Part shown: in pieces, positions 8,731 through 59,523 of the stretch | Layout of the letters: each line of letters begins with the position of its first letter | Position numbering within the stretch: position 1 is the first letter of the stretch | NCBI RefSeq assembly: GCF_040703035.1 | Contig: NZ_CP159996.1 | Span: 1,894,001 to 1,958,000 of the forward strand | DNA: 64,000 nt | Direction of reading: 5' to 3' | Source: Terribacillus aidingensis | Lineage (GTDB): Bacteria > Bacillota > Bacilli > Bacillales > Amphibacillaceae | Position numbers and translations under genes: made by a program | Notes under the pieces: model-generated | Seen by the model: only the letters and a program-made list of their open reading frames with translations | What the model was told of the DNA's origin: nothing | Databases searched by the model: none

Positions 8731-8910
8731 TTTACCAGAAAGTTTCTTATCGTCCTTGGACCATAGTTGCTTCTTGGGTGGCTTCTACTATGGAAGCACT
8801 CTCCAGAGTTGCGTCGTGCTGGAGTTCTTTTGCCTGAGAGATTCACTCAATATTTGCTCCTTCGGCGCCGCTGTACAGCGGTCTCTCCTCCAACATTCAC
8901 TCGCGGTTTA
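8722..8910 (-). promoter_or_regulatory. tandem glycine riboswitch upstream of gcvT
   Basis: On the minus strand the first aptamer shows the consensus elements GGAGAGACC, GCGCCGAAGGAGCAA and ATCTCTCAGGCAAAAG. A second unit follows immediately: CTGGAGAGTG, CACCCAAGAAGCAA, ACTTTCTGGTAAA and GGACAGAG. The order and spacing are those of the two-aptamer gcvT riboswitch, in which glycine binding prevents termination and turns on the cleavage operon. The second unit differs from consensus (CCCAAG for CCGAAG, TTCTGG for CTCAGG). A TATAAT (minus strand, 9013-9018) about 100 bases upstream is a possible -10 element. Confidence 0.92.
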
Positions 8911-35480: not shown

Positions 35481-35553
<73 letters not shown>

Positions 35554-35559
35554 AAGATA

Positions 35560-35652
35560 TGGCGGAGGAAGAGGGATTCGAACCCCCGCGAGCCGTTAAG
35601 CTCCTGTCGGTTTTCAAGACCGATCCCTTCAGCCAAACTTGGGTATTCCTCC
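35560..35652 (-). tRNA. tRNA-Ser (anticodon TGA)
   Basis: A long class II tRNA: acceptor GGAGGAA / TTCCTCC, anticodon loop CTTGAAA with TGA, and a long variable arm (AGGAGCTTAACGGCTCGC). CCA is encoded at 35560-35562. Confidence 0.95.
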
Positions 35653-35680
35653 GCGATGTTTCATATTAAATTCTTGTAAA

Positions 35681-35757
35681 TGGTGGACCCTGCAGGACTC
35701 GAACCTGCGACCGATCGGTTATGAGCCGATAGCTCTAACCAACTGAGCTAAGGGTCC
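35681..35757 (-). tRNA. tRNA-Ile2 (anticodon CAT, lysidine type)
   Basis: Acceptor GGACCCT / AGGGTCC and anticodon loop CTCATAA. The CTCATAA loop with this acceptor resembles tRNA-Ile2, whose CAT is changed to lysidine-AT by TilS, and not elongator or initiator Met. CCA is encoded. Confidence 0.85.
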
Positions 35758-35773
35758 GGTTTAAGTATGAAAG

Positions 35774-35847
35774 GGCGATTGATGGGGATTGAACCCACGA
35801 ATGCCGGAGCCACAATCCGGTGCGTTAACCACTTCGCCACAACCGCC
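35774..35847 (-). tRNA. tRNA-His (anticodon GTG)
   Basis: The extra 5' G pairs with C73, acceptor GCGGTTG / CAATCGC, anticodon loop TTGTGGC with GTG. No encoded CCA. Confidence 0.95.
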
Positions 35848-35867
35848 ATGACTTAAATGAAATTATA

Positions 35868-35944
35868 TGGTAGCGGCGGAGGGGATCGAACCCCCGACCT
35901 CACGGGTATGAACCGTACGCTCTAGCCAGCTGAGCTACACCGCC
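35868..35944 (-). tRNA. tRNA-Met (elongator, anticodon CAT)
   Basis: Begins GGCGGTGTAGCTCAGCTGG, anticodon loop TTCATAC, ends CCGCCGCT-A-CCA with the CCA encoded. G1 faces T72 as in Bacillus elongator tRNA-Met. Confidence 0.92.
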
Positions 35945-35945
35945 A

Positions 35946-36020
35946 TGGCTCCACAGGCAGGATTCGAACCTGCGACCGATCGGTTAACAGCCGATAGCTC
36001 TACCACTGAGCTACTGTGGA
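35946..36020 (-). tRNA. tRNA-Asn (anticodon GTT)
   Basis: Acceptor TCCACAG / CTGTGGA, anticodon loop CTGTTAA with GTT, CCA encoded at 35946-35948. First gene of the cluster. Confidence 0.95.
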
Positions 36021-57127: not shown

Positions 57128-58036
57128 TCAATATTCTTCACGGCTGAAACCGTAATCATTGAGCTGCGCTTGCTTATTACGCCAATCAGGCTGTACTTTA
57201 ACCCAAAGTTCGAGAAATACCTTACTGCCAAGCAGCATCTCTATATCTCTACGCGCCAGCTTACCGACTTGTTTGAGCATACTGCCCTGCTTTCCGATGA
57301 TGATCCCTTTTTGGGATTTTCGTTCCGTGATGATCGTAGCTTGGATAAATACCTTCTCCGTCGTGCTGTGGCGATTCTCGATTGCTTCAATGACAACAGC
57401 GATCGAATGCGGTATCTCCTCCCGTGTCAAATGCAGTACCTTCTCACGAATGAGCTCACTTATAACGAAGCGCTCCGGGTGATCCGTCACTTGGTCTTCC
57501 GGGTAATATTGCGGCCCCTCTGGCAGATAACCTTTTAACGTTTCAAGTAAATGCGCCGTATTATTGCCTTCCAGCGCACTGATTGGGACAATTTCTGTGA
57601 AGTCCAACTTGTCCTTATACAGCTCGATAAGTTCGAGCAGCTTATCCGGATGGACCTTATCAATTTTATTCAGTACCAGGAAAACTGGGTTGTTGACTTT
57701 CTGCAGTCGTTCAAGGATGAATTGATCCCCTCTGCCATAGCCTTCCTCGGCATTGACCATGAACATGACAGCGTCCACTTCATTCATTGTGTTCTCTGCT
57801 GTCTTCACCATAAAATCTCCGAGCTTATGCTTCGGTTTGTGGATACCAGGCGTATCAATAAAGATGAATTGTGCATCATCCTGCGTGAGCACCCCTTGAA
57901 TCCGGTTACGCGTCGTCTGCGGCTTATCACTCATAATAGAGATCTTCTGACCGACAAAACGATTTAATAAAGTTGATTTCCCAACATTGGGTCTCCCGAT
58001 GATGGAAATGAAACCTGAGCGAAATTCTTTCTCCAT
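57128..58036 (-). CDS. era: GTPase Era
   Basis: A 302-residue GTPase that binds 16S rRNA and helps 30S assembly. G1 is [14 protein letters not shown]2 TTRNRIQG, G3 DTPGIH, G4 LNKIDKV, G5 ISALEG; the C-terminal KH domain has IKEKG-like [17 protein letters not shown]. The ATG at 58036 follows GGAGGAAT. In B. subtilis the order is dgkA-cdd-era; here cdd is absent and a repeat array lies upstream. Confidence 0.97.
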
Positions 58037-58160
58037 GCTGTTATATTCCTCCAAGTACTAGTACGACAAAAACCTCGAGTACTATAAAAATGTTGTATCT
58101 CTATCTTACTACAAATCCCCCGCCACTTCACCCATTCGACAAAAGGGGTTAAAAAAAACC

Positions 58161-58280
58161 AAAAGCGGAGAAGACCGGTTAGAAACGAAGTGGTAAGTGA
58201 GAAGGCCCGGAGGAAGGTGAACTCTCCTTCCGCAGGGACTTATCGCTTACAACGCAGTTTCTGGTCTTCGCAGCTAGACG
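58161..58280 (+). repeat. palindromic repeat, copy 1 of 4 (120 bp)
   Basis: Starts AAAAGCGGAG and ends CAGCTAGACG. Arms GAAGACC / GGTCTTC, AGAAAC / GTTTCT, GTAAG / CTTAC and inner GGAAGG / CCTTCC pair to give one long hairpin. Confidence 0.85.
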
Positions 58281-58287
58281 GCTATCC

Positions 58288-58407
58288 AAAAGCGGAAAAG
58301 GCCGTTTAGAAACGGAGGAATAAGTGAGAAGGCCCGGAGGGAGGTGAACTCTCCTTCCGCAGGGACTTATCGCTTATGGCGCAGTTTCTGGCCTTTGCAG
58401 CTAGATG
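58288..58407 (+). repeat. palindromic repeat, copy 2 of 4 (120 bp)
   Basis: Same ends as copy 1 (last bases CTAGATG). Arms are AAAGGCC / GGCCTTT, AGAAAC / GTTTCT, ATAAG / CTTAT, and inner GGAGG / CCTTCC. The outer arms differ from copy 1 on both sides, keeping the pairing. Confidence 0.85.
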
Positions 58408-58412
58408 AAATC

Positions 58413-58532
58413 AAAAGCGGAAAAGGCCGTTTAGAAACGAAGAAGTAAGGGAGAAAGCCCAGAGCAAGGCGTTATTTCCTTGCGCAGGGACTTATCACTT
58501 ATGGCGCAGTTTCTGGCCTTCGCAGCTAGACG
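58413..58532 (+). repeat. palindromic repeat, copy 3 of 4 (120 bp)
   Basis: Arms AAGGCC / GGCCTT, AGAAAC / GTTTCT, and a changed inner hairpin GCAAGG / CCTTGC that keeps pairing. Confidence 0.85.
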
Positions 58533-58536
58533 AAAT

Positions 58537-58653
58537 AAAAGCGGAGGGAACCGTTAAGAAACGAAGTGGTAAGCAAGGGAGCCCAGAGTGGGTGATTTCC
58601 CCACGGCAGGATTCATTGCTTACAACGCAGTTTCTGGTTCCCGCAGCTAGACG
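58537..58653 (+). repeat. palindromic repeat, copy 4 of 4 (117 bp)
   Basis: Arms GGGAACC / GGTTCCC, AGAAAC / GTTTCT, GTAAGCAA / TTGCTTAC and inner GTGGG / CCCAC. Nearly all stems are paired despite many base changes from copy 1. Confidence 0.85.
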
Positions 58654-58668
58654 ACGCTCCAATGGAGT

Positions 58669-58698
58669 AAAAAACCGCCCATCTACATGGACGGTTTT
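58669..58698 (-). terminator. terminator after dgkA
   Basis: On the minus strand AAAACCGTCCAT / ATGGGCGGTTTT with a short loop and six T. Confidence 0.85.
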
Positions 58699-58700
58699 CC

Positions 58701-59081
58701 TCACAATACAGAAATGATTTCCGGAACGAAAACGACAAGACCGACACAAATGGCAGTGATAGCCGCAATGAGGACGGCACCTGCTGCAATATCCTTGATG
58801 AGACCTGCTGCCTTGCTTTGTTCGGGCGATAGGTGATCCATCATAAGTTCGACGACTGTATTAATCATTTCCGTCACAATGACGAAACCGATACTTAAAA
58901 GGATAGCCGCCCATTCCGCTGGGTCGATCCGGAGAATCAAGCCTGTTATCAGCGCGATGATTGCTGCGATTGTATGAATACGGAAATTCCTCTCCTCGAG
59001 GAAAGTCCAGCGTATCCCATTCCACGCATAGCGGAATCCGATGCCAGACTTAGTTTTCTTCCCGTTTGAGTCCGAAGCCAT
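58701..59081 (-). CDS. dgkA: diacylglycerol kinase family protein (undecaprenol kinase)
   Basis: A 126-residue membrane kinase of the DagK family with three helices after a basic N-terminus. Conserved parts are FRYAWNGIRWTFLEERNFRIH (in part), GFVIVTEMINTVVELMMD with the catalytic Glu, and KAAGLIKDIAAGAVLIAAI (in part). In Gram-positives it phosphorylates undecaprenol. AGGAG lies 8 bases before the ATG, inside ybeY, and the two overlap by 32 bases. Confidence 0.93.
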   Translation of the reverse strand: MASDSNGKKTKSGIGFRYAWNGIRWTFLEERNFRIHTIAAIIALITGLILRIDPAEWAAILLSIGFVIVTEMINTVVELMMDHLSPEQSKAAGLIKDIAAGAVLIAAITAICVGLVVFVPEIISVL

Positions 59082-59523
59082 TCAAAATCTCCTCTTGTCG
59101 ACCGAACATCTTCTTCTCATCTGCCTCATTCATATGATCATATCCTAAAAGATGCAGGAAGCCATGCAAAGCGAGAAAACCAAGTTCCCTATCCACACTG
59201 TGCTGATACTCTTCTGCCTGTTCTTTTGCTTTGTCGACAGAGATGATGATATCACCGTAAACAATCGGGATTTCTTCTCCGATTATTTGCTGTTCGCCTT
59301 CCCCTTCTTCTTGCATGGCAAAGGAGATGACGTCTGTCGGTACATCCTTTTGACGATAATTACGATTGATCACCTGTATTTCAGCATTGTCCACAAATGT
59401 GATGGACATCTCCGCTTCTTCTGTTATTTTCTCTGCTTCCGCTGCGTATTGGATAAGCCGATCAATCAAATCTACATAATCTGCTGTCACGCTATTCGTT
59501 TTATCATGGAAATCAATATGCAT
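59050..59523 (-). CDS. ybeY: endoribonuclease YbeY
   Basis: A 157-residue zinc-dependent RNase needed for 16S rRNA 3' end maturation and ribosome quality control. The metal motif is FLALHGFLHLLGYDHMNE (three His), with ITFVDNAEIQVINRNYRQKD and PTDVISFAM before it. It starts one base inside the pgpH stop (overlap), and overlaps dgkA at its end. The string pgpH-ybeY-dgkA-era is conserved in Bacillaceae. Confidence 0.96.
   Translation of the reverse strand: MHIDFHDKTNSVTADYVDLIDRLIQYAAEAEKITEEAEMSITFVDNAEIQVINRNYRQKDVPTDVISFAMQEEGEGEQQIIGEEIPIVYGDIIISVDKAKEQAEEYQHSVDRELGFLALHGFLHLLGYDHMNEADEKKMFGRQEEILNGFGLKREEN

Follow-up and report, generated by a model that had tools for sequence, protein, structure and literature searches.

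The window analysed here, a stretch of 64,000 nucleotides of Terribacillus aidingensis DNA, holds four tandem copies of a palindromic repeat in the gap between era and dgkA; ybeY and recO lie beyond these two genes. The features of the locus are as follows.

57128..58054, minus strand: era (GTPase Era), the left neighbour, to which the array is antisense
58055..58160, minus strand: 106-base region 5' of era, alike across the genus, forming the left flank of the era-dgkA arrays
58161..58279, plus strand: repeat copy 1, with the ends AAAAGCGGA...GCTAGAC
58280..58287, plus strand: spacer 1, GGCTATCC, 8 bases
58288..58406, plus strand: repeat copy 2
58407..58412, plus strand: spacer 2, GAAATC, 6 bases
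58413..58531, plus strand: repeat copy 3
58532..58536, plus strand: spacer 3, GAAAT, 5 bases
58537..58652, plus strand: repeat copy 4, its inner hairpin 3 bases shorter
58679..58694, minus strand: terminator-like hairpin 3' of dgkA, in the gap that separates it from the array; a weak call (1 found versus 1.1 expected in shuffles)
58701..59081, minus strand: dgkA (prokaryotic diacylglycerol kinase), the right neighbour, to which the array is antisense

The copies run in the same direction at the positions given in the original prediction, with spacers of 8, 6 and 5 bases between them. They measure 116-119 bases and share the ends AAAAGCGGA and GCTAGAC/T. With at most one mismatch, GCAGCTAGACG occurs four times in the window, every time inside the array, against 0.72 occurrences expected. 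Near the array, a consensus scan gave no promoter-like sites (0 versus 0.9 expected). Rfam placed no family in the array at gathering score; allowing E up to 10 gave only matches far below that score, and on 13 further element loci Rfam reported rRNA and tRNA only. A CRISPR array was ruled out, as the repeats are diverged and ~120 bases long and the spacers only 5-8 bases. The array had also been described as standing in the place of cdd; gene order agrees with this, but each of the 10 genus genomes searched has a cytidine deaminase gene at another locus, the window's own genome at C1:1740952-1741329. The neighbourhood (window 57128-59523) sets the array between era and dgkA and next to ybeY. 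YbeY serves rRNA maturation, and Era has a role in the same process. This company is probably a coincidence, though the array is kept there in 10/10 genus genomes searched.

The plus strand of copies 1-4 folds better than dinucleotide shuffles (z -4.9, -4.0, -3.6 and -5.1). The minus strand also beats its shuffles (z -4.7, -3.2, -3.4 and -4.5), 1 of 200 shuffles reaching copy 3. The arm sequences named in advance were located, except that the inner arm of copy 2 reads GGGAGG/CCTTCC and that the outer arm of copy 3 contains one A-C cell. The differences between arms are indeed compensatory: both sides change in 11 of 37 predicted pairs among the four window copies, and in 24 of 38 pairs among 66 genus copies in a structure-blind alignment (A3). 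A3 comprises 66 of the 74 distinct genus copies, leaving out six rRNA copies, L002, whose inner hairpin is short, and the degenerate L032. When covariation was tested in this wider alignment it exceeded background, as anticipated, scoring 0.355 versus 0.201 +/- 0.006 for shuffled controls (0/500 reach the score) and at most 0.158 when the partner was slid. Of five measures, four put the A3 structure above shuffled controls and all put it above slid controls; further pair types were not above the shuffles (52 versus 52.5), and basal helix 1 showed no both-side change among the 66 copies. The copies are related and recombine, so these counts are not independent events. A further alignment (A2) was built from the best 150 of 199 matches, which gave 102 distinct places.

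All seven outer-arm pairs are Watson-Crick in 41 of the 66 distinct dispersed copies. In 15 copies three or more of the seven are broken, and since these copies persist, an individual copy can do without the outer helix. For 8 of the 15, both arms occur intact in other copies, for 5 one arm does, and for 2 neither. Judged from sequence, recombination between copies would explain about half of the broken outer arms, and recombination or decay the rest. We considered an asymmetry between G.U and A.C cells as proof of RNA. It stood at 158 to 56 initially, but was carried by three pairs; once the three G.U-rich pairs and the mismatched rows are removed it falls to 24 versus 15. Because the asymmetry is nearly gone without the three pairs and the mosaic rows, it was dropped as evidence.

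A covariance model of the four window copies (R1) was searched against the 3.58-Mb own genome (G000) with E up to 10. Of 41 matches, 11 fall on the opposite strand of copies already matched and 3 are weak (E 0.014, 3.65 and 4.08). The remaining 27 clear elements bear out the prediction of a dispersed family: 20 lie at 10 non-rRNA intergenic sites, as arrays of 4, 4, 3, 2 and 2 copies and five single copies, and 7 lie directly behind 23S rRNA. The dispersed sites fall between long ORFs. Among the matches listed, R1 finds the element at E up to 0.001 in 24 of 41 genomes (own plus 40 relatives), including 9/9 genomes of the genus with 13-46 matches each, both strands counted; G014, G033 and G040 have 85, 61 and 87.

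The era-dgkA array occurs in 10/10 genus genomes in constant orientation and with 1-6 copies: six in G003, four in G000, G005, G006 and G008, three in G007, two in G001, G002 and G004, and one in G041, where the single copy may be an assembly collapse (580-contig draft). The site L013 is likewise occupied in 10/10 genus genomes by blast coverage, among the matches listed. A gene-end site (own C1:2842561-2842853) varies: among the matches listed for the 10 genus genomes, G000, G041, G007, G001, G005 and G006 hold at least one copy, G008 a remnant, and G002, G003 and G004 are cleanly empty. This occupancy could reflect an ancestral insertion or clean loss in one clade; at each polymorphic site we read insertion rather than loss, as an inference. 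At the same site four genomes (G000, G007, G001 and G041) have the neighbouring frame closed by TAG/TAA directly before the element; in G005, G006 and the G008 remnant the frame runs on to a TGA within the element. In G005 and G006 (L266, L265) this element-internal stop swaps out the last residues of the neighbour protein. Several sites are common to different species, so moves look rare.

We examined how arrays grow on 42 spacers from 16 arrays at four sites, setting the last four bases of each spacer against the four immediately to the left of the first copy in its array. Spacers matched the left flank of their own array identically in 27/42 cases (mean 3.60 of 4 bases), versus 0/386 comparisons with the left flanks found at other sites (mean 1.52). 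The era-dgkA flank is AATC in G003, G004, G001, G002 and G006, AACC in G000, G005 and G008, and ACCC in G007. The spacers there copy it fully in G003, G004, G001, G002 and G005, and partly in G006 (1/3), G007 (1/2) and G008 (1/3). In the window's own array 0/3 spacers equal the flank exactly, 2-3 of 4 bases matching. The repeating unit thus usually includes flank, which points to arrays duplicating at their site, with drift or exchange afterwards, and not to repeated insertion. The original prediction had foreseen neither this duplication in place nor the mosaic copies, nor the residence behind 23S rRNA described below.

The repeat is a real, structured, recombining and occasionally mobile hairpin element of Bacillales. 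The reading we favour, and consider probable, is that the window's array arose by local amplification of this small non-coding, hairpin-forming interspersed element, whose plus strand folds as a single strand. Arrays within a site would grow and shrink by tandem duplication and recombination of the element plus a few flank bases, a process that would also homogenise them and yield mosaic copies. The element would occasionally enter new places, namely intergenic gaps and, in many genera, the position just behind 23S rRNA.

In the window's genome 7 of 8 23S 3' ends carry the element, the one at C1:86774 being without it. It begins a few bases behind the 23S 3' end. The Rfam LSU match reaches the model's last position in all 6 loci showing such a match; insertion within the mature 23S sequence is not the case at the loci examined. 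A pattern of 23S end plus element ends was found in at least 120 stretches of the species collection, from at least 18 named Bacillales genera. Among the matches listed these are Cytobacillus, Neobacillus, Mesobacillus, Rossellomorea, Virgibacillus, Sporosarcina, Anoxybacillus, Metabacillus, Terribacillus, Amphibacillus, Aquibacillus, Filibacter, Thalassobacillus, Niallia, Priestia, Heyndrickxia, Litchfieldia and Salinibacillus, together with strains named only Bacillus. Re-scanning gave 121 such places in 119 of the 120 listed stretches (not L078); a 5S core lies at most 700 bases away in 115 of the 121, and of the remaining 6, 3 are truncated where their stretch ends. One record, L076 (JAGGRA010000074.1), is titled Pseudomonas sp. 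ISL-84 and has a Bacillaceae-type 23S end with the element; it is probably a mislabelled or contaminated assembly.

Within single genomes the element is present behind some 23S ends and missing from others. Among the matches listed it stands at 7/7 ends in G003, 4/4 in G068, 1/1 in G136, 5/10 in G106, 2/10 in G125, 1/4 in G120, 2/4 in G043, 1/4 in G078, 1/2 in G119 and 0/9 in G033. The ten G106 operons comprise 5 with the full element, 3 with a shortened hairpin and 2 without. Two of the ten in G125 are full and 8 are without, other sequence occupying the spot; G120 has 1 full and 3 without (n=4), and G043 2 full and 2 with a shortened hairpin (n=4). Three of the nine unmatched G033 operons were read, and none has the element. 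Operons with and without it in one genome indicate that the element comes and goes. In G120 the form without the element is ACTTAACCACAATATTTACCC, and the filled form differs by the element flanked by ACAA on both sides. This flanking, seen in G120 only, could stem from a short duplication of the target, or the element may have inserted where the sequence already matched its own end, since ACAA also matches a common end of the element. Three G003 operons (L222, L223 and L224) carry behind the element a short remnant with the end GCAGCTAGA, which seems to be the tail left by deletion of a second copy.

The rRNA copies resemble the dispersed ones. A midpoint-rooted tree of 207 distinct elements joins 81 Terribacillus copies (68 dispersed, 13 rRNA) in one clade with support 0.64, and the named Terribacillus rRNA copies group with those of the window. 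The best identity of rRNA copies is 0.65-0.87 to dispersed copies and at most 0.64 to other genera; for the rRNA copies of the window's own genome the gap is small (0.65-0.68 versus 0.55-0.60). By sequence likeness, common descent is probable for the genus's rRNA copies and its dispersed ones, in either direction.

Residence behind 23S in many genera invites another explanation, that the element is an RNA serving its host: a normal processing element of the 23S-5S spacer (an RNase III-type cutting site), inherited vertically and sporadically lost, with the dispersed copies as rRNA spin-offs. The single Terribacillus clade agrees with this, as do the orientation, which is rRNA sense only (the element reversed behind 23S in 0/120 genomes of an even sample of the order), and the shortened G043 copies, which by eye retain the basal stem. 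Yet the strict pattern is found in just 12 of those 120 genomes (letters-reversed control 0/120). A second exact pattern, for the 23S end alone, finds 54/120 genomes, and among the matches listed 10 of the 54 have the element; these figures leave the 23S end uncounted in more than half of the 120 genomes, so that they do not show absence there, and miss copies with mutated ends. Operons of one genome are, moreover, often without the element, and G033 combines its 61 family matches with none behind its nine 23S ends. We regard a host-serving role as unlikely, though it is the strongest of the alternatives. Under the favoured reading, an interspersed element lodged behind 23S would be transcribed with the pre-rRNA as a double-stranded stalk and possibly excised like other hairpin inserts of rRNA. 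Among such inserts, intervening sequences (IVS) take the form of hairpins and are excised by RNase III.

The original prediction had offered a folded RNA or a mobile palindrome with cruciform as the source of the compensatory changes. Both were apt to consider, but the choice is narrowed by unpaired loops found on one strand only. The plus strand contains three symmetrical 3x3 internal loops with G.A and A.G partners around a variable middle. Among 66 copies these partners are kept in 64/62 (loop A), 63/59 (loop B) and 48/58 (loop C). Mean column conservation in the loops (0.835) is barely above that of the helices (0.823), the middle loop letters being variable. We scored 2x2 GA/GA and 3x3 GNA/GNA loops in predicted folds, with five shuffles per element. 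Predicted folds hold 1.84 loops per element in dispersed copies (0.04 in their shuffles), 2.83 in the genome's own rRNA copies (6 distinct) and 1.96 in 26 other-family matches. The figure for the 103 rRNA copies, drawn from many genera, is 1.96 versus 0.08 in shuffles; shuffles overall hold 0.03-0.08. At least one loop is predicted in 60/68, 6/6, 25/26 and 100/103 elements of these sets, respectively. Because the search pattern behind the set of 103 fixed AAAGCG.A and AGCT.GA, part of the basal loop is a given in that set; the G standing two positions ahead of AGCT was left free by the pattern and is present in 96/103. The minus strand has no GA/GA or GNA/GNA loops because of its purine make-up. 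The restriction of GNA/GNA internal loops, up to three of them, to a single strand is a feature new in this analysis.

Predicted RNA folding energies are lower for the plus strand in 68/68 dispersed Terribacillus copies, 6/6 own rRNA copies and 102/103 distinct rRNA-operon copies, and in 37/37 genus or strain labels. In the other-family matches the plus strand is more stable in 23/26, a figure open to bias as the strand was picked by the model's own score. Greater plus-strand stability does not come from G.U pairs, a cause we rejected since only 18/37 labels have more G.U in the plus strand; in the folding model the purine loops are its likely cause. Together, the one-strand G.A loops and the greater plus-strand stability make a folded single strand more likely than a strand-symmetric cruciform.

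These loops also bear on the idea that the repeat is a palindrome at the DNA level, its arms kept matching by hairpin template switching or by the need of a protein or cruciform for dyad DNA, with no selected single-strand fold. Some of the data fit: outer-arm changes are mostly A/G transitions, A.C and G.U cells are about equal (31 to 22 in helix 2), and both strands fold. The bulge and the GNA/GNA loops, however, stay unpaired instead of being corrected to the palindrome, with their purines on one strand, and the consistent plus-strand advantage points the same way; this idea seems to us slightly less probable than a host-serving RNA. If instead an interspersed element folds as a single strand, as we favour, its plus strand, most likely as RNA, would form a long stem with up to three GNA/GNA loops and one four-base bulge, the helices drifting by compensatory change and the loop purines being retained. 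G.A pairs can form in single-stranded DNA too, so RNA as the folded form is inferred; folded single-stranded DNA would account for the loop data as well.

The rare moves of the element would call for an enzyme acting in trans. Enzymes of the Y1 type use strand-specific folded hairpins with fixed ends, and a REP/RAYT-type or IS200/IS605-type system, in which a Y1 transposase moves a folded single DNA strand, would suit the element in this respect. Y1_Tnp genes exist in 8 of the 16 genomes checked (G006, G008, G014, G033, G040, G043, G120 and G125). They are absent from the other eight, namely the window's own genome G000, G001-G005, G007 and G106, all of which carry the element, and the unit is far longer than REPs. 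We thus rejected RAYT or IS200 as the present mover; a lost or extinct mover is possible, and we hold a Y1 system as a whole to be improbable. Among the genus genomes checked, G008 (L293) has seven Y1 transposase genes of equal score with a 161-aa frame, which we take to be IS200-like, G006 has one and the other seven none. Window copy 2 had no match among plasmids and phages, nor one Cytobacillus rRNA copy among plasmids.

Some copies sit where an mRNA would end. Three own copies (L002, L007 and L013) start at most 6 bases 3' of a stop codon, in sense, as if copies right behind genes stabilised or ended transcripts. The element is, however, seen antisense to its neighbours at 5/10 own sites (L001 judged on one neighbour), and the window copies have no T tract directly 3' of them; an mRNA-end element appears about as improbable as a Y1 system, or slightly more so. 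Last in likelihood, and very improbable, is a putative bacterial SINE-like element resident in the 23S-5S spacer, whose folded RNA, excised from the rRNA precursor, would itself be what spreads, being recopied into the chromosome and seeding the dispersed arrays.

Our favoured reading, a mobile hairpin element amplified in place, has parallels among known repeats. ERIC, NEMIS (Correia), RUP and bcr1, as far as the sections of the sources consulted describe them (bcr1 and ERIC are treated in PMC2267715), share with the element a short non-coding intergenic hairpin in multiple dispersed copies. Bacterial MITE-like palindromic repeats are given in the relevant section of PMC3733652 as 70-300 bp, non-coding, located beside genes and forming a robust hairpin. 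Like them, the element varies between presence and empty sites, in rRNA operons within one genome and at one intergenic site across the genus. Unlike them, the element has regular tandem arrays, flank-derived spacers, a preference for 23S-adjacent positions and one-strand GNA/GNA loops, and neither a partner transposon (the search covered the Y1_Tnp family only) nor a clear target duplication was found for it. REPs are 20-40 bp long, many tagged GTAG or CGTC, in the same section of that 2013 paper (PMC3733652). REP/BIME with RAYT share with the element a palindromic, intergenic and sometimes tandemly clustered nature, whereas the element is ~120 bp without the GTAG/CGTC tag of that description, and half of the genomes checked are without Y1_Tnp. 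IVS, named as rRNA operon inserts in an excerpt of PMC8708148, share with the element their carriage in rRNA operons; the element lies behind, not inside, mature 23S and is also dispersed elsewhere in the genome.

A further description concerns Bacillus halodurans. There Bhal-1 is an intergenic stem-loop repeat family with a 74 bp model and 36 copies (Cozzuto et al. 2008, PMC2267715, in part). Like the element it is an intergenic stem-loop family of a Bacillaceae genome; compared by description only, it may be a first sighting or a relative of the element family. In Table 2 of the same paper one B. halodurans group is marked as located inside rRNA and omitted, and the text examined draws no link between that group and Bhal-1. 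In the portions of open-licence PubMed Central literature seen, we found neither a dispersed repeat reported to occur in the 23S-5S spacer as well nor the family described by sequence.

If our reading is true, an intergenic repeat of many Bacillales is tied to rRNA operons and has a conserved, RNA-like architecture on one strand, and one could then test directly the old question of whether repeats of this kind work as RNA or at the DNA level only. Genomes that combine operons carrying the insert with operons lacking it would provide a natural experiment on how a mobile hairpin is tolerated in an rRNA precursor and how it is processed there. The one-strand loop pattern and the rRNA residence are the parts worth following. 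Elsewhere in the window Rfam identifies a glycine riboswitch aptamer (8812-8900, minus strand) and a cluster of six tRNA genes (35481-36020, minus strand).
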